Positions 11,885 through 52,709 of a DNA stretch of 64,000 nucleotides are shown here, one piece after another (the first letter of the stretch is position 1; each line of letters begins with the position of its first letter). The DNA is from Trichoderma breve (Eukaryota; Ascomycota; Sordariomycetes; Hypocreales; Hypocreaceae), in the NCBI RefSeq assembly GCF_028502605.1, contig NC_079235.1, positions 1,736,001 to 1,800,000 on the forward strand. Direction: 5' to 3'. Position numbers and translations under genes: made by a program. The notes under the pieces were generated by a model. That model saw only the letters and a program-made list of their open reading frames with translations. It was not told the origin of the DNA and searched no databases.

Positions 11885-12083
11885 CAGGGTTGTAAATTAG
11901 TAACTAAGAGTTTAGTTAGTAGCTTGACTAAAACTAAACTTAAGGTATTAGTTACTAAACTGATTAGTTTAGTTAGTTAATTAACTAAAAACTACTGAGT
12001 TTAGTTAATAGGTTAAGTAAAACTAAACTAATTAGTTTAGTAACTAAACAAACTAAAAACTACCAACTAATTTTACAACCCTG
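11885..12083. mobile_element. 199-bp MITE of hAT family 1
   Basis: It starts CAGGGTTGTAAATTAG and ends TTTACAACCCTG. The exact 8-bp duplication ATAGTAGT is at 11877-11884 and 12084-12091. The terminal sequence (TTAGTTAGTAGCTTGACT and its complement) is that of the complete hAT at 13701-19665, so this is an internally deleted derivative of that family. Confidence 0.9.
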
Positions 12084-15025: not shown

Positions 15026-15394
15026 CAGGGTTGTAAATTAGTGACGATTCTTTAGATTAAATTAATCACTGAGTAAATTAGTTTCGTCAGAGGGTTAAAG
15101 AAAACTAATTCAATTACTCAATCAGCTAAGTAAAACTAGATTAGTTTTCTAATATACTAACGAAAGCTAATACTAATAATAAATAACGAATAACTACTAA
15201 TTAATTATATATAAAAATTAAAGTAATTTACTCAGATAGCTGAAGAAAACTAATTTACTCTTAAATAAATTAATCAGTTAAGTAAATTACTTAGAGTAAA
15301 TTAGTATTAGTTTCTTTAACAGGCTGAAGAAAACTAAATTAATCAGTAAATAATAACGAATAACGAATGACTACTGATTAATCGTGCAACCCTG
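15026..15394. mobile_element. 369-bp hAT-type MITE
   Basis: It starts CAGGGTTGTAAATTAGTGAC and ends CGTGCAACCCTG. The exact 8-bp duplication TTAGTTCT is at 15018-15025 and 15395-15402. It retains CpG sites. Length is identical to the copy at 25746-26114, which lies in the opposite orientation. Confidence 0.9.
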
Positions 15395-15581
15395 TTAGTT
15401 CTTAAATAAAATTCTTTATTAAAATTAAAGGAATAGTTATTATTATTATTAATAGGCCTATTATAATTAAAATCCTCTGCCAGTTTATTAAAAAAAGTAT
15501 TTATAAGATTATTATTATTAATTAAAATAAGGCTATTAATTTCCTTATTTAACCTATAATAATAAAATTAATTAGTAAAAT

Positions 15582-15582
15582 A

Positions 15583-15635
<53 letters not shown>
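15582..15635. repeat. (AAT)n microsatellite
   Basis: About 18 AAT units inside the hAT transposase region. Confidence 0.9.
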
Positions 15636-15640
<5 letters not shown>

Positions 15641-18600: not shown

Positions 18601-19673
18601 ATAATAAATCATACAATAAAAATAAATCAGACTATAAGTTATACAATTAAAATAAATTATCTAATAAATTATATAATAAGTCATATGATTTATTCTTATT
18701 ATATATAACTTAGTATTTTTATATTTTATTTTATTTTTATTATATAATTTATCATATGATTATTATATAATTATTATATAATAAATTATATATAATTTAG
18801 CTTTATTATTTATTATATATTTATTATAGTATTATAATATTTATTATTTATATATTATAAAGCTATTTTTATTATTATTATATAAGCTATAATAAAGGAA
18901 ATATTTTAATAGTAAATTTTATTTTATACAAAAGCATTCTTTTAGCTTTAAATAACACTTAAAATTTTACTATTTAAATTATAGCTTTACTATAACTTAT
19001 ATAATAAAAATGAAAATACTATTATAGAATATAAATAATAAATATTATTATTCCTTTTATTAGCTTTATAAAGCTTATAAGTTAAATTAGTTATTTTAAT
19101 AGTAAATTCTTTTATAATATAAAAGTATTATTTTAGCTTTAAAGAATACTTAAAATTTTACTGTTTAAATTATAGCTTTATTATAGCATATAAAATAAAA
19201 ATAAAAATAGTATTATAAAATATAAATAATATATATTATTATTATTTTTATCAGCTATATAAAGCTTATAATTATAATTAATTATTTTAATAGTAAATTT
19301 TATTTTATATAAAATCGTACTTTTAGCTTAAAATAATATTAGAAATTTAAGTATTTAAATTATAGCTTTAACTTAGCTTATATAATAAAAATAAAAATAA
19401 TATAATAAAATATATATAATAAATATTATTATTTTTTATTTTATATTTATAATTTATATAATATAATATAATAATAATATTAAAATAAAAAATATTATTA
19501 AAATAATATAATTATAAATTAGTTAATTTTAAGTTAATTAGTTTAGTTATTAATTTTAGGTTAATTAACTAAATTTATCAGTTTAGTTAGTAGTTTGATT
19601 AAAACTAAACTAATTAGTTTAGTAACTAAAAAAACTAAAAACTACTAACTAATTTTACAACCCTGACTATAGT

Positions 19674-20048
19674 ACTACTATTAAAGTTATTATTTATATT
19701 CCTAGCTTACCATTAATTTTATTATTAAAGTACTTATATTAAAAACTATATTAAAATTAATATTAGTATTTTACTACTAAAGGTTATATTTATACTATAA
19801 TTTTGCTATAAAAGTATATATTTATATTATTACTTATATAATTTTACTTTATTAAAGTTATTATTTAGTTATTAAATTAAGTATTTACTAAAGTATTGAA
19901 TAATATATATTATATATTAGGGGTATTAATATATAATTATTAAATTATTAAGCTTATAAAGTTATAAATATAGTTTTATATTTTTGTAATATTATTTTAT
20001 TTATAAAATTAAAATTTTTTATTTAACTTTTTTCTTTATTTAAGTATT
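19674..20048. other. unassigned AT-rich spacer
   Basis: This is the flanking sequence between two hAT elements. No protein motif was recognised. It ends with the duplicated target site CTTTTACT (20049-20056) of the following 20-kb nest. Confidence 0.5.
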
Positions 20049-20566
20049 TCTTTTACTAAAGGTTACTAAATTCATTAATAGTTATTCGTTATTCATTTCG
20101 TTACAAATTTCGTTTATTTTCTTCAGCTAACTAACAAAACGATTTTTTTTATTATTCATTAACGAAAGAAGAAACGAAATTCGTTATTCATTACTAATTT
20201 CATTAGTTAAAAATATACTATTTTCTTATTTAAATTATGTATAATAAGTATATTATATTAAAATAAAAATAATAATATTTATTATTTATATTTTATAAAG
20301 CTATTTTTATTTTTATTATAATATCTATAATAAAGCTGTAATTTAAATAGTAAAATTTTAAGTATTATTTAAAGGTAAAAGAATACTTTTATACTATAAA
20401 AAAATTTACTATTAAAATAACTAATTTAACTTATAAGCCTTATAAATATTATAAATAAAATAATAATATCTATTATTTATATTTTATAATAGTATTTTTA
20501 CTTTTATTATATAAGTTATAATAAAGCTATAATTTAAATAGTAAAATTTTAAATATTATTTACACC

Positions 20567-21019
20567 CAGGGTTACTAATTAGTAATAATTTATTTTATTA
20601 GTACCTTAAAGAAAATAAAATAAATTTTTTTTATTATTTATTATTTATTATTTTTTACTTTTATAAGCTAAAGAAAATAAAATAAAGGTATTTGTTATTA
20701 ATAATAATTTATTAATAAAGGTAATAAATTTACTAATAGCTAGCTTAATAAAAATATTATATAAGTATATTATATATTTGTAAAAAGCTAAAAAGTAAAG
20801 CTATAAGCTTATATTTTTTATTATTTATACCTATTTTATTTAATTTACTATTAAATAAATAAATTTCTTTTATTATTTATTTTCGTTAGTAAAAAATTCC
20901 TTTATTTTATTAATGCCTTAAAGAAAATAAATAAAATTTATTATTTATTAACTAATAATAAAGAGTTATTTATTAATAAAATAAATAATAAATAACTACT
21001 AATGAATTTAGCAACCCTA
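20567..21019. mobile_element. 455-family MITE at the left edge of the nested hAT
   Basis: Both MITE termini are visible (CAGGGTTACTAATTAG and TTTAGCAACCCTA). The sequence after 21019 does not repeat the TTTACACC target octamer. The matching octamer is instead 11 kb away at 32172, so this MITE end seems to have served as the left end of a much larger insertion or to have taken part in a deletion. Confidence 0.7.
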
Positions 21020-22745
21020 AATAAAAGGCTTTAAAGAAATAAAAAATATAGTTTTTAATTTTTTTAAAGCTTTAGATTTAAAATTAGAAAAATATAATTA
21101 TAAATAAATTAGTTTTATAAAAATAATATAATAAATAAAATAATAATAAATAAATAATAAAAATATACTTTTTTAAATTCTTTATTAATTATATTATTAT
21201 AATAATATAATAAAGCTTTTTTTAAACTAATTATAATATTAAGTATATAAAATGTTAAATTTATTAAAAATAGGGGTACTAACTTAATAAAAGTAGCAGT
21301 ACTTAATTAAACAAAGGTTAGTCTAGGTTATAGGTATAAGTAGGTAGTTTTTCCTAATAGGCTAAAGTAATAAAATTAAGGCTAATTAATATATATTTTA
21401 ATAAAATTCTAATAAATTATATTATTTATTAAAATTAATTAATTAATAAAGATAATTAAATACTAAATAATAAATAAATAATAAAAAAAACAATAAATAA
21501 ATAATAAATAATTACTTAAAGGAATTTTTTCTTTATTATAAAAAGTAGAAATTTTTTTAATTTTTTTAATTTTTAATATTCTTTTACTTAATAAATTACT
21601 AAGCTCTTAAGTATATTTAATTAATAAAATAATTTACTATAATTAATAAATTAGATTTATAAAATAAATTAATAAATAATATAATTTTAATTATAAATAT
21701 AAATAAATAATATAATTATAAATTAAAAAATTTATTATTAAAAGAATTATTATTATTATTTTCTTTTTTTTCTTTTTTTTCTTTTTTATTATAATTATAT
21801 AAATTATTATTTATATAAGCAAATAAAAATAAATTAAAATAAATAAATAATATATATTATATATTTAATATTATTTATAAAGTCTTTATTATTAGCTTTT
21901 TTATAAGTTTTTTTAAAAAACTTTATAAATATATTATTATTATAGGTACTATTTTATATAATACTAAAATAAATAAATTAGCTTTATAAAAATATAAATA
22001 ATAATAACTATTATAATAATGTAATAATAATAATATAACATTAATAAAATAATGAAATAATAAATAAATACCTAAATAAATTATTTAAATTTAATAAATA
22101 AAAAAAAAGTTTTAAAGCTTTTTTAAATTACTAAAATATATATATTTTAATATAGCTTTTTAAAAACTTTTTAAATTTTATAATTAAATTAACTATTAAA
22201 ATAAAATAATAAAAATATAATAAATACCTATAAGCTTATATTTTAATTTAAATTCTTTATTAATGAAAATAAAAATTATTTTTAAGTAGGAATTTTAGTT
22301 ATTTAAAGTTTAAATATTAAAGATTATAGAAAAAATACTATAAAACTTTAAATTAGCTTTAATATATAAATTTAAATTTAATAAAGCTTTACTATAATTA
22401 TTTTCTAATATTTTACAAATATTAGTTTAATTAATTATAATATAATTATTAATAAAAATATTACTTATTTAATTATAAATAATAAAAAAAAATAAAAATA
22501 ATAATAATAATAATAAAATAATAAAATAAATAATAATAAAATATATAATTTATTTATTATAAAAAAATAATAAGTTATTAAATAAATTTAAAAATATAAT
22601 ATTAAAAAAAATATTATTTTTCATTAAAAAAACTAATATTTTATATAAAGCTTTATGTTTATTAAATTTATTATTAATAACCTTTAATTTTTTATTTTAT
22701 ATATTTAAATTAAATAAAAAATTATAAGTTAAAAATATAATATTA

Positions 22746-23144
22746 TATTATGACCCGGCTCTTATAGTTGCGACAATGGGCCTATAGGGTAGGCGCCGCC
22801 GGAATAACTATTGGCCGATGAACTAATAGTAGTACAGTTACTTAACTCTTCCGATAAGCTATATAAATTATATTTTATCTAGCTTATTTAATAAGCTTTA
22901 TAAACTTAGAATTAACTAAGTATATAAGTTTACTTTATATTACTTATTAAAATACTTAAATAACTAATTATTATTAATATAATGATATTTAAATTAAATA
23001 TTTAAATATTTTATTTTATAGTTAATAATAAAATTACTTATTTACTAATTTAACTACTTTACTAATATAAATTATAAAACTATTTTAATATTTATTTTTT
23101 AAAAATAGCTAATTTATAAAGCTTATAAAACCTAATTTATTATA
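22746..23144 (+). repeat. 5' LTR
   Basis: The first 80 or so bases are nearly free of RIP (TGACCCGGCTCTTATAGTTG, then GC-rich words to about 22820). The rest is as AT-rich as the surroundings. The end (TTATTATA) matches the end of the LTR in the second gypsy copy at 49011. Confidence 0.9.
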
Positions 23145-25745
23145 TAATAATAACTTTTATTTAAATAATTACCTTAGACCTATAGGTAATAAAATATTAA
23201 AAACTTAATAGTTTATAAACTTTAAAGTTTTAAATAATAATATAAATTATAAAAGTAAAGCTTAAAGTAATTATAATAATAATAATATTAAAATATAAAA
23301 TAATTTTAAAAAAACTATTAAAAATATTAAAATAGTATTATAATTATTAATTAATATATAAAAAGTTAAATAGTATTTTTTAATATTTAAAAAACTTATA
23401 AATTAATTATATTAAATAATTATAACTTAAGTAGCTATTATAATAATACTTTAAAGATAAGAATTTATAATTAACTTAGCTTTTATAATATAATAATAAA
23501 AACTTAGGGAAATTATAAAATTAATATTATTAAATAAGTTTAAAAAAAATCCTAAGTAAATTTAGAAATTTTTTATTAATATAAAAAATTATTTTAATTA
23601 TTTCTTAATTACTATAGTTAATAATATTATAAAAATCTAAATTATAAAAAGCTATTTAATTAAAATTATAAAAGATTAGTTTAAGCTTTACCTTAGGGAT
23701 TTTAAATAAACTAAAACCCTTAAGAAATAATATATATTTAACTTATTTAATAAATATAATATATTTAAAAAGCAGCTTAAGAAATTATATAAAAAAACTA
23801 ATAAATCTAAAGAAGTTAAAAATACACTTTTTTAAATTAAATAAAAAAAAACCTTATATAAAGTATATTACTGCTTTTATATACTTAATTATTAGGACTA
23901 ACTTAAATAATAAAGTATAATATATACTTTATTATTAAGGACTTAATTTAAATATTAAAAATAAACTCTTTAAAATTAAAAAAAAACTTAATACCCTTAA
24001 TAAACTTATAGAAAAAATTACTTATATTAATAAATAATAATTTTAATAATATTAAAAATATAAATAAAAAAGTAACTTTTAAAAAATAATTTTAAAATAC
24101 TTTTACTTTAGTAATAATATTAATTAAAAAAAAAAAAACTTTATAATATATAATAATAAAAAACTAAAATTAATAAACCTTAGTATTATTAAAGTATAAT
24201 ATAAGAATATTAAATATTATAATTATAAAAAAATATATATAAAGAAATACTATTAAGCTTTAAAAAAAAATAATAATAAAAAATTTATATTTATCCTAAA
24301 ACCTAAGGAAAACTAAACTATTAATAAGTTATAATATATTATACTTTTTAATTTATTATAATAATAATTATTAAACTTATTATAATAATAAATAAAGTTT
24401 TAAATAATATTCTAAAGAATATACTTAAACCTTAAATATATTTAAAAAAGTTATTTAAAAAAACTTTAGCTATATTAAGTAACTTATATAATAAAACCTT
24501 AATAAATAAGAAAAAACTTTAACCTTTTAGTATAACTTTAATAAAAAAAATTAATATAATAAAACTATAATATTATAATATAAAACTATAATATAGGATA
24601 TATTAACCTTAATATTAATAAATTATACTTAAATTATATATTATAAAAACCTTAAGAACTAAAATACTTTTATAAATAAAAACCTTTAGGTAAAGAAAAT
24701 AATAAAAGTAAAAATAAAATAATTAATAATAAAAATAAAAAAAATTTATAAATATAATTATTATAAAATTAATAAAAAATATTAATAATAAATTAATATT
24801 TTTTTAAATATATATTTTTTTATAAAATATAAAAACTAAAAGTTACTTTTTTTTAACTTAACTAAATAATTAATATTATTTATAAATAAATTATATAAAA
24901 TCTATAGATTTTATAAGCTTTATAATAATAAATACTATATATATAATTTTAAAAATAAATTTAATAATTTTTTAAATATTATACTATTAAAAAGCCTTAT
25001 ATTATAGAAATTCCTTAAATAATAAAGAAAAATTCTTAAAATTAATATAACTAAAGTTTATAATAGAATTTAAATAGTAGAAAAGGAGTTTTAATAATAC
25101 TTTAATAATAAAAATACCTTATACCTTAAGCTTAAATTATAAAAATCAGCCCTTTACTATATAAATAATATACTATACTTAAACTTTAAGAATAATATAA
25201 AAACTATAGAATTATAAAATATAAATAAAAAAAATTTACTTTTTATAATTAAAATAATTATATAAAATACTAAATTTAATATTATATATTTATATATATT
25301 ATAAAAAACTTAGCTAAATAAAGCTTTAATTTTAAAAAATATACTAGTAAATATAATATTAATACTAAAATATTAAAAATTAGTTAAAAAAACTTTTAGA
25401 AATATTATAAATTTACTAATAAATATATTTTAAAACCTAAATATATTTAATATAAATACTATAATTTTTAAATTTATAAACTAAGTTAAATTACTTTAGA
25501 ACTAAATAATATTAAAACTAACTTTAATAATAAAAAATAAAATAATAATAATCTTTAGAATAATAATAATTACTATAATAATATTAATAATATAACCTAT
25601 TATAATTTAAATATTATTTTTTTAAAAAAAAAACTATAAAAATTCCTTATACTAGGATTTTTAAATAAAAAACCTATTATTATTTATATAAACTTTAAAG
25701 CTATAATAAATTATATTATACTTTAATTAATAAATTACCTATAGT

Positions 25746-26114
25746 TAGGGTTACATAATTAATCAATAGTTATTTATTATTTATTATTATTTACTAATTA
25801 ATTTAGTTTTCTTCAGCTTATTAAAGAAACTAATACTAATTTACTCTAAGTAATTTACTTAATTAATTAATTTATTTAAAAGTAAATTAGTTTTCTTTAG
25901 CTATTTAAGTAAATTACTTTAATTTTTATATATAATTAATTAGTAGTTATTTATTATTTATTATTAGTATTAGTTTTCGTTAATATATTAGAAAACTAAT
26001 TTAGTTTTACTTAGCTAATTAAGTAATTAAATTAGTTTTCTTTAACCCTTTAATGAAACTAATTTACTTAGTAATTAATTTAATCTAAAGAATTATCACT
26101 AATTTATAACCTTA
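25746..26114. mobile_element. 369-bp hAT-type MITE inside the gypsy element
   Basis: It starts TAGGGTTAC (from CAGGGTT) and ends AACCTTA. The exact 8-bp duplication CCTATAGT is at 25738-25745 and 26115-26122. The second gypsy copy, read on the minus strand near 46530-46560, carries the same target once (CCTAAAGT) with no insertion: an in-window empty site. Confidence 0.9.
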
Positions 26115-26119
26115 CCTAT

Positions 26120-29100
26120 AGTTAACTAATTATAAAAAAAAAAATTATATACTTTTATAAATATTAAAAAATAATTATTTATTTATAATAATAAAACTAT
26201 TAATTAAAAAATTAATTACTTTAAAATCTAGTTTAATAAAATTAAAAATATATTTAAATTTAATATTATTAATATTATAAAATATAATATATTTTTAAAA
26301 TATAATTAACTAAAATTATATAATCTTAATATTAATTAAAAAAAGGCTATATAAAATAATAACCTTATATTTAATTGATTAATATATTAGTAAAATTATA
26401 ACTAAATTAAGAAAATTAATAAAATACTATAATATTTTTAATAATAAAATTAATAACCTTTATATTATATAAAAAAATATAAAAATATATAAAAAAAAAA
26501 AAAGTTATAAAATAAATATAATTTAAAAAACTAGAAAAACTCCTAAAAATAATTAAATATATTAAAAAAAAAAAAAAAATAACTTAGATTTTTTAATTTA
26601 ATAATATAAAAAGTTAAAGAACTATATTACTAAAATTAAATATTAAAATATTTAAAAAATATATTAATAAACCTTTAGCTTATATTAATCTTTAATAAAA
26701 AACTAAATATTAAATTATTAAAATATAATTAATAAAATTATAAAATTAAACTTATAAATAATAAAATATTTATATTTAATAAAATTTATAACTTAAGTAT
26801 TATTAAATTTAAAATACTTAATAAATAAATTAAAGATTAACTAAAGAAAAATTATATTAAACTTTTTAAATTTTTAATAAAATATTTAATTATATTTATA
26901 TTTAAAAAAAATAATAAACTTTAATTTATTATAAATTATTAATAATTAAATATAATAATTAAAAAAAATATTACACTATTATTTTTAATTTTAAAAATTA
27001 AAAACTAACTTATAAAAGCTAAAATTTTTACTTTACTAAATCTTAAAAAAAAATATAATTTTATTTATATTAAAAAAAGTAATAAATAAAAAACTATTTT
27101 TTATATAAAATATAAACTTTATAAATATTAAGTAATATTTTTTAAATTAATAAATACCTTAGTATTTTTTTAAAAAAATAATTAATTATATATTATAAAA
27201 CTATATAAATTATTTTATTATTATATACTTTAATAATATTTTTTATTTATTTTAAAAACTTAGAAAAATATAAAAAATATATTAAAAAAATATTATAAAT
27301 ACTTTAAAATAATAAATTTTTAATAAAACTTAAAAAATATAATTTTTATATATAAAAGATTATATTTTAAAAATATATTATTATATTAAGCTAAATATAA
27401 ATAAACTTTAAAAAACTTAAAGTAATTAATAATTAAAAACTATTTAAAAATATTAAGTAAATATAAAGCTTTTTAAAACTTATTAACTATTATTAATACT
27501 TTATTAAGGACTTTTTAAAAATTATTATATTATTTATAAACTTAATAAAAAAATATTAAATTTAAACTTATATAAAATACTTATATAATTTTTAATTACT
27601 TTAAATAAGCTTTTATAAATATACTTATATTTATAATATTTAACTTAAATAAATTTATTATTATTAAAACTAATATTTTAAACTTTATAATTAATAAAGT
27701 ACTTAGTTAATTTAATAATATTAATAAAAAGAAACTTAGGCCTATAGTTTATTTTTTTAAAAAACTATATAAACTAAAACTTAAATATTTTATTTATAAT
27801 AAAAATTTTTTAATTATATATTAAGTACTTAGTAAATAATATTAAAAATATTATTATAAAAAAAGCTAATTTTTAATAATAATTTTTATAAATTATTAAA
27901 ATATTACTTATTTTATAATAATATAAAAATTATTTTATAAATAAATTAAGTATTATAAATAATTTTTTAAATTTAAATTTATTGTTAAATATTATAATAA
28001 TTTAAATAATAAATATACTAATATACTTAGTAAATACTTAAATTATTTTTAAGAAATTTTAAAAATAAAAATATAAATATTAAAGAAAAACTAATATAAA
28101 AACTTAGTTATTTAATTAATTAATATATGATATTAAATTAAAATAAATAATTTAATTATTAATAATATAAAAAAATATATTAAAAACTAAAAAAATAAAT
28201 AATATTCAGAAAGTATTTTTATAAATATTAAATACCTTATATTAAATAAACTTATTTAAATACTAAAGGATTTATAAAGTAAAGTAGTAAAATTAATTTA
28301 TATATATAAGCTTAATAAATATTATAAAATTAAAAAAAACTATATAATAAATTATATAATACTTTAAATTTAAAAGTATTAAAAAATAAATATAAAAAAA
28401 TATATTAAAATATATAATATATAAATAAACTAAAGTATTATATTACTTTTTTTATAAAAAATTATAATTTTTATTAATTTTAATTAGAAATTAAAAATTA
28501 ATAATATTTAATTATATTATAAAACTTTTATTTTTAAAAAAACCTATAATTAATAATATTTAAAATAATATTTTTATAATAATTAATTAATTTTTAAAAA
28601 TAATTTATTTTATTTTAGTAATAAAAAAAAGCTTTATAAAAAACTTAGCTTATATTTTTTTTAATATATTTATATAAACTATAAATTATTAAATAAAATT
28701 ATTTTTAATATAAAATTAATATTTATATTAAAATTTTAATAATTATTTATAATATAAATTAAATTAAAGTATAATGTAAATATAGTTTATTACCCTTAAA
28801 TAAATAAATAAACTAAGTAAATTAATTAAATTATTAAAATATATTTATAATATTATATTAACTTTAATTAAAATAATTAAGTAAAATACTTACTAATTAC
28901 TTAAGTATTTTATAATAATATATTAGTAAAATTTATAAATTACTTATTATTTTATATAAACTATAGGTTTAAATTAAATTTATATTAACTATTTATTAAA
29001 AAAGAAAATATTAATAAAGCTATTATTATAATTAATAAATTTAAAAAACTATATTAAAAATTATAAATATAACTTAAATTTATTAAATAATAAATAATTA

Positions 29101-29600
29101 AATTTATAAATATAAAAAAAATTAAAAAATTAACTTTTAAAAAAGAAAATATAATTTACTTATTTTAATATTTATAAAATAATAAATAGTTAAATATTAA
29201 AATAAATAAATTAAGTAATAAGCTTAATTTTAAAAAACTTAAATTATATAAAATTATAAAGAAAATTAAATTTATTAATTATAAAATAAATTTTTTATTT
29301 ACCTTAAGGAAATAAAAAAAAACTATATATTTAAACTTTTATATTTTATTATTAAAAAAAATATTAGTAAATAAAAAAATAAATAAAATAATATAAAATA
29401 AAATTATTATTTAAAGTAAAAAACTTAAATATAAAGTTAAAAAGCTTAAAATAATAAAATTTAATAAAAATACTTAATAAACTAAATATTTAGTAAAATA
29501 AAAAAATTATAATAAAATAAAAAATTTATAATAAATTATTAAAAACCTTAAATACTTAAAAAACTTTATAAATGATTTTTACTAAAATTTAAGTTTAATA
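26120..29600 (+). pseudogene. Ty3/gypsy pol fossil (RT, RNase H, integrase)
   Basis: Every codon is riddled with RIP changes, yet the order of gypsy pol survives. Around 27220-27240 the frame reads IIIYFNNIF, the transitions-only decay of the reverse transcriptase Y-x-D-D block. Around 27620-27706 it reads KTNILNF followed by VLS, the decayed RNase H ETDASDF...VLS block. Around 28400-28470 it reads YVKKYIKTCNICKQTK-like text, the integrase zinc-binding region, and near 28780 CKYSLLPLNK, corresponding to the STAYHPQTDG block. Many glutamine and tryptophan codons are now stops. The element is fungal and inactive. Confidence 0.8.
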
Positions 29601-30277
29601 AAAAAAAATTAAAAATATTTTAATTAATAGTATTAATTATAAAATCTATAATTATAAAATTAAATAAATTAAGTAATAAAGTTTTAGCTTAATATAAAGC
29701 CTTTACTTTTTACTTTTTTTATTTAATATAATTTAACTTATTTAAATTATTAATACTTTATACTATAGTATATATTATTTTTTTATATTATAACTTTTTT
29801 TCCTTATAAAAGTACTTAACTTTTATATTAAATAAGTAAAAATATTTAAGCTTATATTTATATTTTTCTTTTACTTTTTTAATTTTAGCTTTTAACTTAA
29901 TATATTAAAAAGCTATTTTATAAAATTATATATAAAAAAGTTATTTTATATTATAAAAAGACTTTTATTTCATTATATAAAAGGAATAATAAAAAAACTT
30001 TTTTTTTATAAAATAATATTTAAATTTAAAAGTTTTATAAATAAAATATTTATTTATTTTAACTAAGTAAAATAAAATAAATAAGTAAAAATTATTATAT
30101 TATTTATATTTATTAAATTTTTACTTTTTAAATTTAGTAAATATAATAGTAATTATTACTTTAGAATTATAAATAAAAAAAAATAAAAATAAAAACTTAT
30201 AAAAAAAAAAAAAGTAAGTTACTTATATTAAATTAAGTAAGGTCTTAAGGGTAAAATTAATAAAAAGGGGAATATTA

Positions 30278-30676
30278 TATTATAATTTAGCTTTTATAAT
30301 TATAATAATAAATTTATAAAGTAAATACTACTAAAATAACTATTAGTTAATAAACTAATAGTAGTATATTTACTTAACTTTTTTAATAAGTTATATAAGT
30401 TATATTTTATTTAATTTATTTAATAAGCTTTATAAGTTTAAAATTAATTAAGTATATAAATTTACTTTATATTATTTATTAAAATACTTAAATAGTTAGT
30501 TATTATTAATTTAATAGTATTTAAATTAAATATTTAAATACTTTATTCTATAATTAATAATAAAATTACTTATTTACTAACTTAATTACTTTACTAATAT
30601 AAATTATAAAATTATTTTAAGGTTTATTCCTTAGGAATAGCTAACTTATAGAGCTTATAGAACTTAGTTCATTATA
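30278..30676 (+). repeat. 3' LTR, fully RIPped
   Basis: It aligns without gaps to the 5' LTR. Over the first 84 compared positions (22751-22834 against 30283-30366) I count 32 differences, every one C-to-T or G-to-A in the direction of decay in this copy. From about 30620 to 30670 the relation reverses, and this copy keeps more G and C than the 5' LTR. Confidence 0.9.
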
Positions 30677-30681
30677 TATTA

Positions 30682-31900
30682 GCTTTTAAATAAAGTAAAT
30701 TATTAATAATTAAATTAAAAAGGCCTATTTATAAAGAGTTATTAAGTAAATTATTAATTAATAAAATTAATTAACTTATTTAAATTTACTAAATATTTTA
30801 ATTAATTATTATAATTATATTATTATTATTATTATAACTTATATATAATAAAATAATTATAATTACTTATAATTAAATTATTATATTTATATTATAATAA
30901 AAATATTATAATTATAATAAAACTAAAAGTTTTATTAAATTAATTAAAAAAATAAAATAATAATTTACTTTTTCTTTTTAATTTTTTTAGATTTTTAATT
31001 ATAAATTATAATAAAGTATTTTAATTAATAGTAATAGATTAAATTTAATAATTTAAAGCTTTTTAATTAATAAATAACTTTAAATTTATAATTAGTAATT
31101 AATTAATAGAATAAATAATAAAATAATAATAAAATAAATAATTAACTTTATATAATATATTTTTATTTTTTAATTTTTTTTTTAATTTTATAAATAATAA
31201 ATCCTTTATAAATAAATTATTTTAAAAAATATAAATTTTAAAATTTTTATTTTTTTTAAATTAAAATTTAAGTTTATTATAAATAAAATTATTAATTATA
31301 CTAGTTTTATTATTAATAATAAATAAATTTAAATATAAAAAAAAATTAAAATTTAAATTATTATAAATAAATAATAATTTAAAATTTAAATTAATAATTT
31401 TATAAGTTTTTTTTTTTAAAAATTATTAATTTTTTTATATTTATAATTAAAATTTATTATAAAAAAATATTTTTATAATAAAAAATAATTATTATAATAA
31501 AATAAATAAAAAAAATATAAAAGAAAAAAGTTAATTATATAAATAATTTAATTTTATAATAATTAATAAGTTATATTATAAAAATAAATTAAATTATTAA
31601 TTAAATTATAAATTATATAATAAATTATATAGAATTTAATTTTAATATTTATTATATATTTATTATATATTAATAATATATATAATATATATAAAATATA
31701 TTTTATAAAATTATTTTTATTATTATTATATAAGCTAAAATAAAGAAAATATTTAAATAGTAAATATTATTATAATATAAAAGTATTTTTTTAGGTTTAA
31801 ATAATATTTAAAATTTTACTATTTAAATTATAACTTTATTATAACTATTATAATAAAAATAAAAATAACTTTATAAAATATAAATAATAAATATTATTAT
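30682..31900 (-). pseudogene. right part of the nested hAT body
   Basis: The text continues that of 21020-22745 and matches 17730-18900 of the complete hAT: the N-terminal transposase region on the minus strand followed by subterminal repeats. No frame is open. Confidence 0.7.
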
Positions 31901-32556
31901 TATTTATTTTAATATAATATAATTACTATATATAATATAAATAAAAAAATAATATATTTTTAATTAATAAAATTAATAATAAATAATAAATTTTGGTTTT
32001 TCTTTTATTTATAAATATAATTTATTATTTATTAATAAATAATAAAAAATTTTTTATTTTATTAATTAACTAAAGAAAATAAATAAAATTTATTATTTAT
32101 TAATAAAGAATAAAAAGTTATTTATTAATAAAATAAATAATAAATAATTATTAATAAATTTAGTAACTTTATTTATATTTAAAAATACTATTAAAATAAT
32201 TAATTAAGTTTATAAATTATATAAACTTAATAAGTGAAATAATAGTATTTATTATATATTTTTTATAAAACTATAATTAATTTTATTATATAATCTATAA
32301 TAAAATTAGAATTTAAATAATAAAATTTTTAATATTATTTAAAGCTAAAAAAATACTTTTATATAAAATAAAATTTACTATTAAAATATTTCCTTTATTT
32401 TAGCTTATATAATAATAATAAAAATGATTTTATAAAATATATATTATAAATATTACTAATATATAATAAATATATAATAAATATTAAAATTAATATTTTA
32501 TATAATAAAAATATAATAAATTATAAAAATATAAAGTTATATATAATAAAAATAAA

Positions 32557-32825
32557 TTATATAATTTATTATATAATTTATTAAATAATTTATTATATAA
32601 TTTATTATATAATTTATTAAATAATTTATTATATAATTTATTATATAATTTATCAAATAATTTATTATATAAATTATTATATAATTTATTAAATAATTTA
32701 TTATATAATTTATTAAATAATTTATTATATAATTTATTAAATAATTTATTATATAATTTATTAAATAATTTATTATATAATTTATTAAATAATTTATTAT
32801 ATAATTTATTAAATAATTTATTTTA
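32557..32825. repeat. 24-bp minisatellite
   Basis: About 11 tandem copies of a unit combining TTATATAATTTA and TTAAATAATTTA halves. The first copies are more irregular than the last. It lies in the 5' part of the outer hAT. Confidence 0.85.
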
Positions 32826-33599
32826 ATTATATAACTTATAGTTTAATTTATTTTTATTATATAATTTATTACTAATTATTATAAAATTAAATTATTTATA
32901 TAATTAACTTTTTTCCTTTATATTTTTTTCCTTTATTTTATTATAATAATAGTTTTTTCTTATAATAATATTTTTTTATAATAAATTTTAATTATAAATA
33001 TAAAAAAATTAATAATTTTAAAAAAAAAACTTATAAAATTATTAATTTAAATTTTAAACTATTATTTATTTATAATAACCTTAATTTTAATTTTTTTTTA
33101 TATTTAAATATTTTTATTATTAATAATAAAACCAATATAATTAATAATTTTATTTATAATAAACCTAAATTTTAATTTAAAAAAAATAAAAATTTTAAAA
33201 TTTATATTTTTTAAAATAACTTATTTAAAAAAAAATTTATTATTTATTAAATTAAAAAAAAAATTAAAAAAAAAATAAAAAATAAAAATATATTATATAA
33301 AATTAATTATTTTTTTTTATTATCTTATTATTTATTTTATTAATTAATTACTAATTATAAATTTAAAGTTATTTATTAATTAAAAAGCTTTAAATTATTA
33401 AATCTAATTTATTATTATTAATTAAAATACTTTATTATAATTTATAATAAAAAATCTAAAAAAAATAAAATAAAATTATTATTTTATTTTTTAATTAATT
33501 TAATAAAAGTTTTATTTTTTTTATAATTATAATATTATTATTATAATATAATTATAATATTTTAATTATAAATTATTATAATTATTTTATTATATATAA

Positions 33600-33969
33600 A
33601 TATAATTATATAATTAATTAATAATTATTTATTATTTATTATTATTTATTAATTAATTTAATTTTCTTTAGCTTATTAAAGAAATTAATATTAATTTACT
33701 TTAAATAATTTACTTAATTATTTAATTTATTTAAAAGTAAATTAGTTTTTTTTAATTATTTAAGTAAGTTACTTTAATTTTTATATATAATTAATTAATA
33801 ATTATTTATTATTTATTATTAATATTAATTTTTATTAATATATTAAAGAACTAATTTAATTTTATTTAGTTAATTAAGTAATTAAATTAATCTTCTTTAG
33901 CTTTTTAATACAACTAATTTTCTTAATAATTAATTTAATTTAAAGAATTATTATTAATTTATAACCTTA
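33600..33969. mobile_element. 369-family MITE, fully RIPped
   Basis: The sequence follows the copy at 25746-26114 throughout and ends ATAACCTTA near 33969. The left boundary is within a few bases of 33600. No clear target duplication can be read. Confidence 0.7.
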
Positions 33970-34196
33970 AGTAATTTTTTTAATAATAAATATAACCTTT
34001 ATATTTATAATATTATTTATTTATAATAGTATTTATTAATTTATTTTTTAAATTTAATTTATTAATTATAGTGGATTATTTTATTAGTTAAATATACCTA
34101 AAAGCTTAGTAATTTATTAAGTAAAAAATATTAAAAAATAAAAAAAATAAAAAAATCTTTGTTTTTTATAATAAGGAAAAAATTTCTTTAGGTAAT

Positions 34197-34505
34197 TATT
34201 TATTAATTATTTATTATTTATTATTTATTATTTATTATTAATTATTTATTATTTATTATTTATTATTTATTATTTATTATTTATTATTTATTATTTATTA
34301 TTTATTATTTATTATTTATTATTTATTATTTATTATTTATTATTTATTATTTATTATTTATTATTTATTATTTATTATTTATTATTTATTATTTATTATT
34401 TATTATTTATTATTTATTATTTATTATTTATTATTTATTATTTATTATTTATTATTTATTATTTATTATTTATTATTTATTATTTATTATTTATTATTTA
34501 TTATT
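34197..34505. repeat. heptamer satellite (TTTATTA)n
   Basis: About 43 tandem copies of TTTATTA, almost perfect after two early variants. It sits in the outer hAT between the motif GGAAAAAATTTCTTTAGG and the next transposase block, where other hAT copies have a much shorter TTATT run. Confidence 0.92.
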
Positions 34506-34662
34506 AAATTTATATAAAAGTTATTAAATCTAGCTTTACTAAATTAAAAAAGTATTTTCTTAGGAAAATAATTGCTTTTAGTTTAATTTATTATAAATTA
34601 TTTTTTTATAATTTACTTTTAAATCCTTAATTTAAAAATATTTATTTTAAAAATAAAATAAT

Positions 34663-34745
34663 AAATAATAAAAATAAAACAATAAATAATAAAAATAAAA
34701 CAATAAATAATAAAAATAAAATAATAAATAATAAAAATAAATAAG
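34663..34745. repeat. 21-bp minisatellite
   Basis: Four copies of ATAAATAATAAAAATAAAACA, the last ones losing the C. Confidence 0.8.
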
Positions 34746-35602
34746 AATAAATAAATAATATATTTATTATATTTTATTTTTAATAAATATAAAATAGAAT
34801 TATTAATATTAAAGAAAAAATATAATAAACTTTTATTTTTATTATTTATTATTTTATTTTTATTATTTATTTTATTATTTAACTAATATTATTATTTTAG
34901 ATTATAAAATAAATACTTAATAAATATATAAAATTTTATATATTTAATCTATATAAAATCTTATATAAATTGTATAAATAATATAATTTATAATATATTA
35001 TAATATATTATAGTTTTTATTACTTTATAAATTTTATAAATAACTTTAATTTATATACTTTTTACTTTATTTTTTATAATTTTTATTATTTTTTTCCTCT
35101 TTAATAAAAGCTTAATATTAAATATTATATTTAATTTAATAATTAAAGTAGTAATTTTATTTATAAAGTTAAATATATATATAATTATTATTATATATAA
35201 AATATTTAATAAAATAGTAAAAGTATTAATATTATACTTTTATAAAATATTTAATTTATTTTTTATAAATTTTTTATATAATTAAGTTAATAAATTTAAT
35301 TTAGCTATATTAAGTAATTAAAGTAGTTTTTTTTATTATTTTATAATTTAAATTATATTTTTCTTTTATTTAATTATTTTATAATATATTAATAAAAGAC
35401 TAAGCTTTTATATTATAATATATTATAAAATACTTTTATATATAAAAATATTTTTAATTTTATTAATTTAATAAATTTATTTTAATTATTATAAAGATTT
35501 ATTTATTATTTAAATAAAATATTTTTAAAGTTAATTATTTAATTTATATAAAATATATTTTTTTAAAACTTTTAAAGTTTTTTAAATTTAAAAAAAATAT
35601 AT

Positions 35603-36280
35603 AAAGATTATATTTATTATTAAAAAAGTTAATAAATCTATAATAATTAAATTAAAGAAAAATTATATTTTAACCTTTAGTTTAAAATTAAAAATTAATT
35701 TATAATTTAAATTATAAAGTATAATTAATTAAAGTTTAAAATTAAACTTAAAGTATATAAAATAACTTAAATAATAAAGTTTAAATATAATATAATTAAT
35801 ATATATATAAAAAAAACCTAAATAATAAAATTTAAGTATAATATAAGCTTTAAGTTTATAATTTATAGTTTAATAACTTAATTAAATTAAATAAATGTTT
35901 TTTTTATTAAGTTATAAAAAATAATAATAATTTTTAAAAATAAATTATATATATAATATAAAAAACTACTTAAAAAAATAATATACTTTATATAAAAGTA
36001 ATAAACTTTTTAATAATATAAATAAATAAAAATAATAAAAAACTAATTATAGCTAAAATAATAATTATTATTATAAAAATTTATAATAAAAATATTATTA
36101 ATATTATAAAAAAAGTTTACTAAAGTTTAAAATATAAAAAAAGTAAAAAAAAATAATTTAAATTAATTATAAAAAAAAATATAAATTAATTAAGCTAATT
36201 AATAATTATTAAATAAAAGTTTAATAATAATTTATTATTTTAATTTTAGTTAAGTAATTTATTTTTTATATTTAGGAAAA
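35603..36280. repeat. unclassified repeat R3, copy 2
   Basis: It starts AAAGATTATATTTATTATTA and follows the copy at 2988-3655, with an extra duplicated section around 35740-35850 and a less certain 3' end. Confidence 0.5.
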
Positions 36281-37282
36281 AAGAAAAATATATAATTATA
36301 GAATATATATTATTATTATATTTAAATAATTTAAAATTAAGTTTTATAATTAAAGAAAATATATAATTATATATTATTATAATATTTAAATAAATTAATA
36401 TAAATTTTTAATTACTTTAATTAAATTATTTATATATTATATTAATATATATTATTTAAGAGAAATTTTATAAAATATAAAAAACTATTATTAATTATAT
36501 ATATAATATACTTTATAAAATATTAATAATAAAAAAAATATAATTTTATTATTATTATATTAATTATTTTATTATATTTATATATATATTAATAATATTT
36601 AATAAAATTTAAATTTTTTATTATTTTTATTTATTTTAATTTAAAAAAATTTAAATTTAAATATATTTAAATTTTTTATATTAAAAAAATTAAAGTTTTA
36701 TAATATTATATTATAAAAAATTAATAATTTAATATTATTTATTAATATAGATTTTTATTATTATATAACCTTAGGGAATTTATTTATAAATAACTAAAGA
36801 TTATATTATTATATTTAGCTTTATTAAAATAATAATTATATTTATAATTTTAATTATATTATATTATTATTTTAAATTATATTAATATTTTTAATTTTAT
36901 TAAATTAATAATTATATTAAAAAAAGAAAAAATTATAATATATTAATTAATAATATTTAAAAAATATTTATTATTTTTAATTTTATTAAATTAATAAGTA
37001 TATTATTTAAATACTTAATATTTTATATTTATTTTTTTAATTTTTTAATTATATATATTTTTTATTTTATAAATTAATTTAATTTAAAATTATTAAATAT
37101 TATATTAAATATTATATTAAATATTATATTAAATATTTTAAATATAAAACTATATAACTTTAATTTTTTAAAAATTAATTTTTAAATTTAAGTAAATATT
37201 TTTAAATTATATTATTACTTTTATTTTTATTTTTACTATTTATATTTATATAAGTATTATTATTATTATATATTATTTTTTA

Positions 37283-37552
<270 letters not shown>

Positions 37553-38111
37553 ATGAATTTAAAGTTTAAAAAGTAAATATTTATAAATAATTTTATTTAA
37601 TTAATTTATATAATTAAAAAAAGCTAATTAAATTTAAGCTACTTAAATAAAACCTATTAATATAATTAAATATATTTATAAATTAACTATTATTAATATA
37701 ATTTTTACTATTACTTTTATTATTAATATTAATATTAATATTTTTTTTTTAATATTTAAAATATTATTTTTATATTATTAATTAATTTTATATTTTTTAA
37801 TATTATTATAAATATAAAATTTAATATTTAATTTATTAACTTTTTATATATACTTTATATTTAAAATTCTTTTTATAAAAATTATATTAAAAATATTATT
37901 TTTAAATTTTTTTTTTTTTAAATATTATATTAATAATAATAAAAAGTTTTATTATTATATAAATTATAAAATTATAAATTATTAATATATATTTTTATAA
38001 ATATATATAATATTAAATATTATTTTTATTAACTAAAAGTTTATTAAGTATTATTTTTATTAATTACTTTAAATATATATATATTTTTTTTTAATTTTTT
38101 TTTTTAAATTT

Positions 38112-38480
38112 AAAGCTTAATTTAAGTTATTTAAGTATTATAATAAATATATTATTATAAATATATATATATTTTTTAATTATAAAGCTTAATTTAAATT
38201 ATTTAAGTATTATAATTATTTTATATAGTTTTTTTTTAATTATAAAGCTTAATATAAACTATTTAAACTTTATAATAATTGTAAATTTATATATTTTTTT
38301 TTAAATATAAAGCTTAATTTAAGTTATTTAAATATTATAATAAGTTATATAATTATATATATTTTTTAAATATAAAGCTTAATTTAAATTATTTAAGTAT
38401 TATAATAAATTATATAATTATATATATTATCTTTTTTAAATATAAAACTTAATTTAGGTTATATAAGTATTATTAATTAT
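38112..38480. repeat. minisatellite of 60 to 71 bp units
   Basis: Six copies, each opening with AAAGCTTAATTTAA followed by TTATTTAAGTATTATAAT, start near 38112, 38183, 38243, 38308, 38373 and 38443. The AGCTT core survives in five of the six. Confidence 0.8.
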
Positions 38481-39019
38481 ATAAATATAAGTAATACTAT
38501 TTATATAATTTATATAAAATCCTATATAAATTAAATAAATAAAATTCTATATAAATTAAATATATAGGATTTATATATTTATTAAATACCTATAGGATAA
38601 AGTTAATAGCCTTAATATAATTAATAATAATATAGTTAATATATTTTTAATAAATTAATTAATGATTTTAATTATAATAAAGTTATTAAAAATATTAATA
38701 ATAATAATTTATTTAATTTTAATATAGAATTTTATTTAAGTACTAATAGTAATATTAAATATAAAATATTTTTATATTTAAAAAAAAATCTTATATTAGA
38801 AAATATAAATTATTTATTTTACTATAATATTATTATTTTATTATTTATTATTTTATTATTATATTATTATTTTATTATTTACTATTTCATTATTATATTA
38901 TTATTTTATTATTTACTACTTTATTATTATATTATTATTTTATTAATTACTAATTATTTATTTTAATAAAATAAACCTTTAAATTAATAAAAGTTTAATA
39001 ATAATAAATTTCTTATTTT

Positions 39020-39200
39020 ATTTATTTTAATAAAATATTATTTAATTATTTTTATTACTTTTATTACTATAGAAAGTATATTTTCTATTAGTAATAATAT
39101 ATAATAAAGGTAAGGAATAAATTAAATTTAAACTTAGGTTTTAAAATAATATTATTAAAAAATTAAATAAAATAAATATTTTTTAAAAAAAAATAAATTT
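39020..39200 (+). pseudogene. hAT transposase dimerisation domain (20-kb nest)
   Basis: Plus-strand text matches the blocks at 6013-6170 and 10138-10330 (ITIESIFSISNNI-like, then ILLKN), with an indel after the SNN block and RIP stops. It shows that the right end of the 20-kb nest belongs to a plus-strand hAT. Confidence 0.7.
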
Positions 39201-40078
39201 ATATAATTATTTTATTTATATAGCATTTTTATTTATTAAATAAATATTATTTTAATATAAAATAAAAAGTTTTTTATAATATAATTATAAAAATATAATT
39301 ATTAAAAAGTAAAAAAAAAATAAAGTATTTTTTTAAATTTAAATAATATTAAAAATTTTATTATTTAAATTCTAAGTTTATTATAATTTATATAAAAAAA
39401 ATAAAATTACTTTTATAAAATATAAATAATAATTATTATAATATACTAAATTATATTTATATAGTTTATAATTATAATTAATTATTTTAATAGTAAATTT
39501 TTTTATAATATAAAAATAATTTTTTAGCTTTAAATAATATTTAAAATTTTATTAAATTCTAAGTTTATTATAACTTATATAATAAAATTAATTATAGTTT
39601 TATAAAATATAAATAATAAGTATTATTATTTTATTTATTAAGTTTATATAATTTATAAACTTAATTAATTATTTTAATAATAAATCTTTTAATAATATAA
39701 AAGTATTTTTTAAGTATAAATAATATTTAAAATTTAATAATTTAAATTATAGCTTTATTATACTTTATATAATAAAAGTAAAAATACTATTATAAAATAT
39801 AAATAATAAATATTATTATTTTATATTTTAATATAATATAAATATTATATTTTATTTAAATAAAAAAATAATATTTTTTTATTAATAAATTTAATAATGA
39901 ATCTAGTAATAATTTATTATTTATTATTTACAAATAAATAATAAATTTCATTTATTTTATTTTCTTTATTTAATTAATAAAATAAAAATGTATTAATAAA
40001 TAATAAATAGAATTTATTTTATTTTCTTTAATTAATTACTAAAATAAATTATTATTAATTAATAACTTTGCTTTTACT

Positions 40079-41923
40079 TAATATAATATAACTTTTTTTT
40101 TATTATATTAATAAAAAATAATTTTCTTAATTTTATATATTATATTTAGTATAAAAAAGTAATTTAATAGTTTTATTAATTTATTATTATAGTTTTTAAA
40201 TTTTTTAAAGTTTATAATATTAAAAATATTATAAATTTTAATTAATAATAAAAGTTATAATTAATATATAAAACTATTATTTTTTTATAATATATTTAAC
40301 TTAATATAATTTTATAAATTTTTTAATAAATTTATAAATTAGTTTTTATAAATTTAAATACTTTATTAAAATAAAAACTTAATTATTAACTTTAAACTTT
40401 TTTTTTATATAGTTTTTATTATATTATTTTTAGTAAAATTTACTAATTTTTAATAATATTTATATTACTACTTTATATATATATTATACTTTTTAAAATT
40501 TTATAATAATATTATTATTTATATATAATAATTAAATTTATTTAATTAATAAAGCTTTTAGTTAAAATTTATAAAATAATAATATAAAAGTTTTATAAAT
40601 TGTTAAATATTATATTATATTATAAATAAATTTTACTAAAGGGAATTTATAAATTTAATTTATTTAGTTTTTATTATAAAAAGCCTAAAAGTAATATTTT
40701 AAATTATAATTTTATTTTTTTATTTATTTATTTATTTAAAAATAAAATATAATAGTAAATTATTTTTATATTTTAAAAAATAATAAAAACTTTATTAAAA
40801 TATATTAATATATATTAATATATAATTTAATATAATTCCCTATAGTATTTTATATAAGTAAAATATATAATAAAGGAATATATTTATAAAACCTTTATTA
40901 CTAATATTTTTTAAATATAAAAAATATAATATATATTTTATAAATTTATTTATAATAATTAAAATAAAATTATATTTATACTTTTTATATTTAACTTTTA
41001 GTAATTTAATAATAAAATTTATTAAGATTTATTTCTAAGGTTTTTAAAATATTAATAATATTATAAGTTTATTATATAATAAATATTATTTTACTTTTAT
41101 TATTTAATTAATTATATATATATTAATATAATTTTTTATATTTTATTTTATATTTTACTAAAAATAAATATTTATAATTTATATAAAGGTTTATTTAATT
41201 TTTTAATACTTAATTATAAGTTTATTATAAAATAATATTAAGATTTTAATTTATATTTTTAAAAGTATAAAAGTTTTTTTTTTATAATAAAGTAATTAAT
41301 TATTTTTTATAAATTAATTATATAATTTTTATTTATTAATAATTATTTTTTTTATTATTTTTTTATAATAATTTTATAATTATAGTATTTTTTTTATATT
41401 TAAAGTAAAACTTTAAAAAATATTTATTAAATTTTTAATAATATTATAATAATACTTTTTTAAATTATTTATTTAATTATAATTAAAATTTATAAAAATA
41501 TATATTAAAAATAAGTTATTTATTTATTTATAATTATATTTTTTTTTTAATTTAAAAAACTTTATTAAAGTATAATTTTAATTTTAAATTATAATAAAAA
41601 CCTTAAGGTATATAATTATTTAAGGTTTTTTTTAACTTAATTATTTTAATTTTTATTTATTATTTATTTATAAATCTCCTTAAGAAGTTTAATAAATAAT
41701 TATAATTTAATTTTTTTCTTATTTTTTAATTTTTAAAATTTACTTTTTAAAATAATTTATTTATAAAATTGACTTTTTTAAGTTTATATTTAATAATGAA
41801 ATTAAAAAGTAATAGTTTTTTTAATTATAATATTTATTTATTAAATAGTTTTTTTTTATAAAATAATTATAATTTAAATAATTTATTAAAATTTATATAA
41901 AGTAGTTTATATATATTATATAA
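40079..41923. other. unassigned AT-rich sequence
   Basis: About 1.8 kb outside the 20-kb nest. The T-rich plus strand suggests former coding on the minus strand, but no motif of hAT, gypsy or other families could be matched with confidence. Confidence 0.4.
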
Positions 41924-41931
41924 AGTTACTA

Positions 41932-42371
41932 AATTTATTAATAATTATTTATTATTTATTAATAAAATAAATAATAAAATAGTTTTTATTAATAAATAAT
42001 AAATTTAATTTATTTTCTTTAGGGTATTAATAAAATAAAAGAAACTTTTATTAATAAAAATTTATAATAAAGGAAATTTATTTTTTTAATTATAAATTAA
42101 TTAAAATAAATATATAAAAGTAAATTATATAATTAAATTTAACTAAAAATTTAATTTTTAAATATATAATTTATTTATTTTTATAATTTATAATAAATTA
42201 ATAATTAATAAATTTATTATTTTAGTAATAAATTATTATTAATAAATTTTATTTATTTTATTTTCTTTAATTTATAAAAAAAAAATAAATAAATAATAAA
42301 TAATAAAAAATTTTTATTTTATTTTCTTTAAGACTATAATAAAATAAATTATTATTAACTAATAACTTTAA
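41932..42371. mobile_element. 455-family MITE (440 bp), fully RIPped
   Basis: It starts AAAGTTACTAAATTTATTAA and ends AATAACTTTAA. The 8-bp duplication TATTATAT is at 41924-41931 and 42372-42379. Confidence 0.75.
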
Positions 42372-46090: not shown

Positions 46091-46254
46091 ATATTTTATA
46101 TATATTTAATTTACTTAATTTATTACTTTTATAAAATAATTAATTTAAAAATTACTTTTTATAATAATTAATTTAAAATAGTATTTTTTATAATAATTTA
46201 CTTAATTTATTATTTTTATAAAGTAATTAATTTAAAATATTATTTTTATAATAA

Positions 46255-52485: not shown

Positions 52486-52585
52486 TGTTTGTTGTTGGGT
52501 AGGTTATATAAAGAAGATAGCTATAGAGGCAGCTAGAAGAAAATTACAGCAGTTGTTATAGCGGGGTAATTTACTAACTAAGGGT

Positions 52586-52645: not shown

Positions 52646-52709
52646 CGCCTACTGGGCGCCTATCATTTACTCTATATTTCAACATCTCATAGCATTTTCA
52701 ACCTTCTCC

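Follow-up and report, generated by a model that had tools for sequence, protein, structure and literature searches.

Can the order in which four mobile elements entered one another still be read in DNA as rich in A+T as this, and what does that order say about the compartment in which they lie? The locus is a transposon nest at positions 20,049 to 40,078 of a 64,000-nucleotide stretch of Trichoderma breve (the window, C4:1736001-1800000, in a genome of 38.55 Mb and 9 contigs, C1 to C9), where a hAT DNA transposon encloses a second hAT, a long terminal repeat (LTR) retrotransposon and a miniature inverted-repeat transposable element (MITE). At a probability of about 0.82, we consider that the nest arose through successive insertions into elements already present, in a block that is probably centromeric. 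As such, it is a well-preserved example of a known phenomenon; what is possibly novel is that a DNA-transposon superfamily appears to be confined to one AT-rich block per chromosome.

The GC content of 2-kb windows ranged from 2.7 to 18.2% over positions 1-52000 and from 38 to 51% past 52000. An earlier note on this DNA had placed the nest in sequence of over 90% A+T, which holds for 8 of the ten 2-kb windows of 20001-40000 (88.9-96.9%) and fails for the other two, the lowest being at 88.9%. The four target duplications were all present where that note had located them, as was the right end of the outer hAT, whose left start lies one base further in, at 20058. The layers are as follows, with the strands of layers 1 and 2 given relative to the reference hAT at 13701-19665 taken as plus.

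20050-20057 and 40071-40078, target duplication of layer 1, CTTTTACT, 8/8 identical
20058-20566, minus strand, left piece of the outer hAT (layer 1), interrupted by layer 2, its last 8 bases (20559-20566) being the layer 2 target octamer
20559-20566 and 32172-32179, target duplication of layer 2, TTTACACC and TTTATATT respectively, 5/8 identical, all three mismatches C versus T
20567-22745, plus strand, left piece of the second hAT (layer 2), ending in TATTA (22741-22745)
22741-22745 and 30677-30681, target duplication of layer 3, TATTA
22746-30676, LTR retrotransposon (layer 3), LTRs at 22746-23144 and 30278-30676
25738-25745 and 26115-26122, target duplication of layer 4, CCTATAGT, 8/8 identical
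25746-26114, plus strand by convention, MITE-1 copy (layer 4), 369 bp, inside the LTR element
30677-32171, plus strand, right piece of the second hAT
32172-40070, minus strand, right piece of the outer hAT, 32172-32179 being the second copy of the layer 2 octamer

Empty sites were sought by mapping the 300-bp flanks of each element separately onto other copies and measuring the gap between them. With the LTR element excised, the nine best targets listed gave a gap of 0 in four cases, -3 in two, -7 in one and -528 in two, the last being one place on C7 counted twice. The gap-0 sites comprised a copy on C5 (L004), two further C4 copies, one of which lies inside the window on the minus strand, and the reference hAT. 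Excision of the MITE at 25746-26114 gave a gap of 0 in all nine listed targets, which represent three separate places on C6 and C8, and on C8 the ends of adjoining matches agree with an empty MITE site. The copy at 46255-49410, offered previously for comparison, is partial and on the other strand, with homology from about 46186 to 49256; it aligned over the whole empty MITE site, scoring 407 against 132 for the reversed control.

The two LTRs are 399 bp each and align in a single gapless register, and a full-length relative of the element occurs on C6 at 77% identity. LTR elements are expected to start with TG and end with CA; this one has TA at its start and TA at its end. A start at 22751 (TGACCC) was ruled out, as the empty site puts the start at 22746. 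The superfamily named in the earlier note, gypsy, is putative: the anatomy is that of an LTR element, and a search of the window for the reverse transcriptase domain PF00078 returned no match. At the 5' LTR, the initial 115 bp (22746-22860) still have 45% GC, whilst the collinear 30278-30392 of the 3' LTR have lost most C/G, so one edge of the element escaped mutation.

Layers 1 and 2 are assigned to the hAT superfamily by DNA homology, for which the following features of the window serve as reference.

13701-19665, minus strand, reference hAT, 5965 bp, terminal inverted repeat CAGGGTTGTAAA at both ends
13693-13700 and 19666-19673, its target duplication ACTATAGT, 8/8
14553-14807, minus strand, open frame of 84 aa with the hAT C-terminal dimerisation domain (PF05699, 62.7 bits)
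15026-15394, minus strand, MITE-1 copy within the reference hAT, duplication TTAGTTCT on both sides
18902-19440, subterminal repeats of about 190 bp in the reference hAT, with a further array at 13956-14403
39322-39831, array of the same subterminal repeat (about 190 bp) in the outer hAT

Elements of the hAT superfamily make 8-bp duplications and have CAGGG-type inverted ends. The duplication was identical at 8/8 positions for the reference and outer hATs and at 5/8 for the second (C/T differences only), and layers 1 and 2 terminate in diverged forms of the reference terminal inverted repeat. Subterminal repeats, the C-terminal dimerisation domain and short derivatives are further points of likeness to hATs and hAT-type MITEs. 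Within the hATs studied, PF05699 occurred only in 13701-19665, with none seen in layers 1 and 2; the transposase reading frame is broken and no intact transposase was seen. The 84-aa frame is free of stops though the GC content of its element is 12%, and stop-free matches to the domain amount to 9 of 12 in the genome, 14553-14807 among them. The reference hAT had been regarded as intact, which it is not, since it carries the MITE at 15026-15394 with that MITE's own duplications; an empty site for the reference hAT itself was searched for and none was found.

The left piece of the outer hAT aligns to the reference over 20308-20562 in minus orientation, and the right piece runs collinear with it apart from a MITE, a 3.8-kb stretch and roughly the final 140 bp. 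The flanks of the second hAT map into the subterminal repeat of about 190 bp of the outer hAT. The first 300 bp of the second hAT are 94% identical to 6556-7010, 93% to 5558-6012 and 84% to 41921-42370; roughly its final 240 bp have no match in the reference hAT and 80% identity to the 455-bp element at 5558-6012. These three elements, each about 455 bp long, make up a second MITE family with ends that match the second hAT. The right end of the outer hAT scored 190 against the 455-bp MITE, compared with 104 for the control.

Base composition bears on the same order. In 12 AT-rich segments the TpA/ApT index was 1.11-1.55 and the (CpA+TpG)/(ApC+GpT) index 0.03-0.50, as against 0.77 and 1.28 in 52500-64000, which is the signature of repeat-induced point mutation (RIP), a process that turns C into T in repeated DNA during the sexual cycle. 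All 34 differences between the MITE in the reference hAT and the LTR-borne MITE are C>T or G>A, and between the outer-hAT and LTR-borne MITEs there are 30 such changes and 7 others. Of 81 C/G sites of the MITE, the LTR-borne copy has lost 31, and the outer-hAT copy retains none of those 31. The GC content of the three measured MITE-1 copies was highest at 15026-15394 (24.5%; others 14.6 and 6.9%). Length-weighted GC follows the insertion order, at 5.0% for the outer hAT (right piece, MITE and 3.8-kb stretch included), 6.9% for the second hAT, 8.6% for the LTR element and 14.6% for the MITE. The second hAT retains 84 of 308 C/G of the reference hAT and the outer hAT 71 of 357, a modest difference, and one taken over different parts of the element. 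Nested elements that inserted later are reported as often higher in GC in the available part of a study of a lichen fungus (PMC12542154), hence reading a nested order from RIP is not new.

On this evidence, the outer hAT would have inserted first and the second hAT next, into the outer one's subterminal repeat; the LTR retrotransposon would then have entered the second hAT, and a hAT-type MITE the LTR element. The insertions would have been carried out by hAT transposase and a retroviral-type integrase, RIP would have made the subsequent changes, and, if the block is a centromere, the nest would be a cross-section of hAT history in that compartment. The earlier note had called this order complete. 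The order (outer hAT, second hAT, LTR element, MITE) appears supported by the duplications, by the rejoined flanks, two of them gapless, and less strongly by C-to-T decay. Completeness does not stand, because a further MITE and the 3.8-kb stretch lie within the outer hAT, the second joint is gapped and the outermost site is without an empty counterpart.

The distribution of hATs was then considered across the genome. Relics of hATs were found in seven intervals only, which makes one for each chromosome provided that C7 and C8 belong together. Contigs C1, C3, C5 and C6 carry telomere repeats at both ends, C7 on the left only and C8 on the right only, and none were found on C2, C4 and C9; C7 and C8 may therefore be one chromosome, for a total of seven. 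The intervals, which are probably the centromeres, and the positions of subterminal-repeat matches within them are:

C1, 3.35-3.45 Mb, matches at 3.439 Mb
C2, 3.20-3.30 Mb, matches at 3.218-3.276 Mb
C3, 2.17-2.28 Mb, matches at 2.209-2.264 Mb
C4, 1.70-1.79 Mb, matches at 1.716-1.776 Mb
C5, 2.25-2.34 Mb, matches at 2.278-2.311 Mb
C6, 2.64-2.70 Mb, matches at 2.677 Mb
C7, 2.70-2.80 Mb, matches at 2.734-2.796 Mb

All 129 matches to the subterminal repeat fell inside the seven intervals (40 of 65 candidates scored), 129 not being a copy number, as many matches are both strands or neighbouring units of one copy. The PF05699 domain gave 12 of 12 matches inside, on C2, C3, C4, C5 and C7 (16/16 candidates scored), and the MITE 26 of 26, on C2, C4, C5, C6 and C7 (17/17 candidates scored), some of the 26 being partial or both strands of one place. 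By comparison, the LTR of the nested element had 59 of 104 matches inside and 45 outside (40 of 147 candidates scored), the latter at chromosome ends, at C2 62-69 kb, on C8 and at C6 3.92 Mb; as controls, none of 6 reverse transcriptase matches and neither of 2 DDE_1 matches lay inside the intervals. When all matches, hAT and LTR, were merged at equal distances, the clusters inside numbered 18/18 for hAT versus 15/34 for LTR at 5 kb (Fisher p 3.6e-5), 13/13 versus 13/25 at 10 kb (p 0.0026) and 7/7 versus 6/14 at 100 kb (p 0.018). Apart from two self matches, an AT-rich query gave weak matches (40 of 73 candidates scored), of which 68 of 69 fell in these seven regions; we use them as an approximate guide to where the DNA is richest in A+T. 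On C8, positions 1420001-1520000 (L042-L051) have blocks of 6-28% GC among stretches of 39-52% GC, with LTR matches and no listed hAT match.

The likeliest reading is that hAT insertions are directed to, or survive only in, this one-per-chromosome AT-rich compartment, and the odds given to confinement rest mainly on the domain and MITE counts. Several points tell against it. The interval limits were fixed post hoc from the match positions, several genome searches scored only part of their candidates, and the degree of decay of a copy affects whether it is detected. The intervals of C1 and C6 each rest on one hAT place, the domain was not found on C1 and C6 nor the MITE on C1 and C3 in these searches, and the centromere identity of the intervals rests on position and composition only. 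A substantial alternative, which we place clearly short of even odds, is that confinement reflects survival or detection as opposed to targeting, arm copies having been purged or only block copies remaining recognisable after decay. The compared hAT copies are indeed AT-rich (GC 4-15%), and some searches scored the best candidates only. Against this, no candidate went unscored in the domain and MITE searches, and AT-rich LTR copies were picked up on C8 and at C6 3.92 Mb, with further LTR matches at chromosome ends; decayed repeats beyond the intervals are therefore both tolerated and detectable.

For the nest itself, the alternative to successive insertion that retains some standing is recombination among repeats, in which exchanges between hAT relics would have assembled a mosaic. 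It draws on the gap at the joint of the second hAT and on the latter of two further features of the outer hAT, listed next.

About 33610-33990, plus strand, further MITE-1 copy, heavily mutated, ends approximate; a target duplication was looked for at this copy and none recognised
34658-38469, 3.8-kb stretch with simple repeats, its one region of hAT homology being an inverted fragment at about 34686-34841

The 3.8-kb foreign stretch and its inverted fragment show that the outer hAT has also been rearranged, and this is among the findings that weigh against a history of insertions alone. The excised second-hAT joint is short by 25 bp when compared with the reference hAT and by 24 bp when compared with the opposite end of the outer hAT itself, the surrounding flank otherwise being a close match. 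The flanks of the second hAT gave gaps of -166 to -168 in 7 of nine listed targets and -547 in 2, which we read as the 25-bp gap plus whole 191-bp repeats. The extreme ends of the outer hAT and the right end of the second hAT are unmatched in the reference hAT, the left end of the outer hAT barely exceeds its control against the 455-bp MITE (68 versus 50), and no empty site of the outer hAT was found among the compared loci. The 501-bp left piece of the outer hAT, with a GC content of 12.8%, lies off the gradient, and layers from different families may differ in starting GC. Hence the excise-and-rejoin check that the earlier note proposed gave gapless joints for the LTR element and the MITE, the right place with a gap of 24-25 bp for the second hAT, and no empty counterpart for the outer hAT.

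Shifting the right joint of the second hAT by -40 to +40 bases merely raised the alignment score from 406 to 416. The outer hAT also holds simple arrays, of TTATTTA (about 44 copies at 98%, 34200-34505), of ATT (about 116 copies, 37206-37550) and of a 12-bp unit (about 28 copies, 32556-32888).

Whilst the second-hAT gap and the foreign stretch are compatible with recombination, complete termini flanked by target duplications, and joints exact to a single base, are not predicted by it, and we judge it improbable as the origin of the nest; it may be the source of the 3.8-kb extra stretch.

Successive insertion was further examined through the duplications. On the plus strand of the window CTTTTACT occurs 10 times and CCTATAGT 7 times, so octamers alone are not rare, and TATTA occurs at least 60 times, the first 60 all inside the first 1.8 kb. 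A pattern for hAT-like ends, composed after ends of the same family had been inspected, located 24 left-type and 26 right-type ends in 1-52000, giving 212 pairs at admissible distance. Exact 8/8 duplications were found at six of these pairs (6556-7010, 8749-9083, 11885-12083, 13701-19665, 15026-15394 and 41921-42370), compared with a mean of 0.28 in shifted-position controls, whose maximum was 5, with 0 of 400 reaching 6. The nest layers contribute none of these six: the second hAT has an inexact duplication, the left ends of the outer hAT and MITE layers escaped the pattern, and the LTR element is no hAT. The octamers are informative because they pair at termini, common as they are singly. 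A genome search for CTTTTACT followed by the end pattern returned one match only, located in DNA of 50% GC.

That the layers are over-read from octamers and short inverted ends pairing accidentally in 90% A+T DNA is highly improbable, for all the abundance of CTTTTACT and TATTA, the one duplication of merely 5/8 and the long alignments at 65-66% identity that AT-rich stretches yield, since exact pairs exceed expectation, flanks separated by 0.4 to 8 kb map to adjacent bases in other copies with gapless joints, and the MITE joint and most hAT and LTR segments score well over reversed-sequence controls.

Related short elements in the window add to the record of hAT activity.

8749-9083, shortened MITE-1 copy, exact ATCTAGCC duplication
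11885-12083, 199-bp element, both reference-hAT ends at 90%, exact ATAGTAGT duplication

MITE-1 has the features of a hAT-type MITE, being 369 bp long and multi-copy, with hAT-like ends and 8-bp duplications (CCTATAGT, TTAGTTCT and ATCTAGCC) at three copies. Excision of the reference-hAT copy, mapped to nine targets, gave contiguous flanks against L009 (listed gap 2, the flank having begun 2 bases late), and the other eight rows comprised four of -4, two of -92, one of -46 and one of +46. Amongst the MITEs of about 455 bp, the duplications TTATAGGC and ATATTATA are exact and the copy at 5558-6012 has only 6/8. The 455-bp MITEs and the 199-bp element look like internal-deletion derivatives of two hAT lineages.

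The GC-normal side of the window encodes a SRAP-domain gene, a Zds1-type gene, whose protein shares 99% identity with a Trichoderma camerunense protein, and the complex I 30-kDa subunit; the match to T. camerunense points to a Trichoderma, probably from the harzianum group. Rfam models gave 0 matches to the window at the gathering threshold. Relatives of the PF05699 domain were recovered for 18 of 19 candidates, those named being from Trichoderma harzianum, T. asperellum and Fusarium vanettenii; they are fragments by construction, as eligible proteins were 0.55 to 1.75 times 84 aa. The named T. harzianum and T. asperellum relatives lie on contigs of 1.2-16 kb, which may be what is expected for badly assembled AT-rich blocks, though other causes exist.

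The centromere-restricted elements considered for comparison are mostly retrotransposons, and, if true, the confinement of hATs would be a DNA-transposon (class II) counterpart of these centromere-specific retrotransposons. Among the titles and abstract openings listed in searches of the literature on fungal hATs and centromeres, none reported centromere-restricted hATs. The closest parallel in distribution is VdLTRE9 of Verticillium dahliae, for which the available text gives 204 of 215 copies in centromeres (PMC7482064). Both are degraded families nearly confined to one AT-rich region per chromosome; VdLTRE9, however, is a degenerate LTR element in CenH3-proven centromeres, whereas here a DNA transposon superfamily occupies putative ones. 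Cladonia rangiformis, the lichen fungus mentioned above, similarly has nested RIP-mutated elements and, on most chromosomes, one large RIP region that is read as the centromere; in contrast, the part of that report available describes RIP regions dominated by retrotransposons, and DNA transposons in ripped and unripped regions alike (PMC12542154). Amongst fungal hATs, the available account of Pyrenophora tritici-repentis describes a 5.6-kb element, similar in length to the reference hAT, that carries a histone H3-like gene and is not there placed at centromeres (PMC3538342), and that of Pochonia describes abundant hATs without a link to centromeres (PMC5773674).

Within the genus, seven Trichoderma genomes are described, in the portion available, as having seven chromosomes with one longest AT-rich, ORF-free block each, containing transposition relics and RIP (PMC8672877). 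The hAT intervals found here are likewise one per chromosome, for seven chromosomes if C7 and C8 are joined, and the AT-rich block of the window likewise contains transposition relics with the RIP signature; the main text of that paper, so far as available, has no word beginning with 'hAT'. In T. reesei QM6a, where the longest AT-rich block per chromosome and active RIP are likewise reported, the accessible text describes putative centromeres with 24 centromere-specific conserved repeats, AT-rich, of 4847-8625 bp and called perhaps centromeric repeats (PMC5496416). That range includes the 5965-bp length of the reference hAT. A RIP-mutated hAT of 6 kb would resemble these 4.8-8.6 kb repeats, and the link is accordingly offered as a proposal: the published Trichoderma 'centromeric repeats' may be hAT relics. 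In its full form, which we advance tentatively and hold to be possible more than probable, Trichoderma centromeres would be built on centromere-restricted hATs, with autonomous hATs and their MITEs inserting selectively into centromeric chromatin, nesting and being fixed by RIP, and the conserved repeats of T. reesei would be their relics. The 190-bp subterminal repeat, the PF05699 relics and the two MITE families would then be searchable markers for centromere position in long-read assemblies of Trichoderma, and the comparison with T. reesei offers a possible identity for published repeats of undefined nature.

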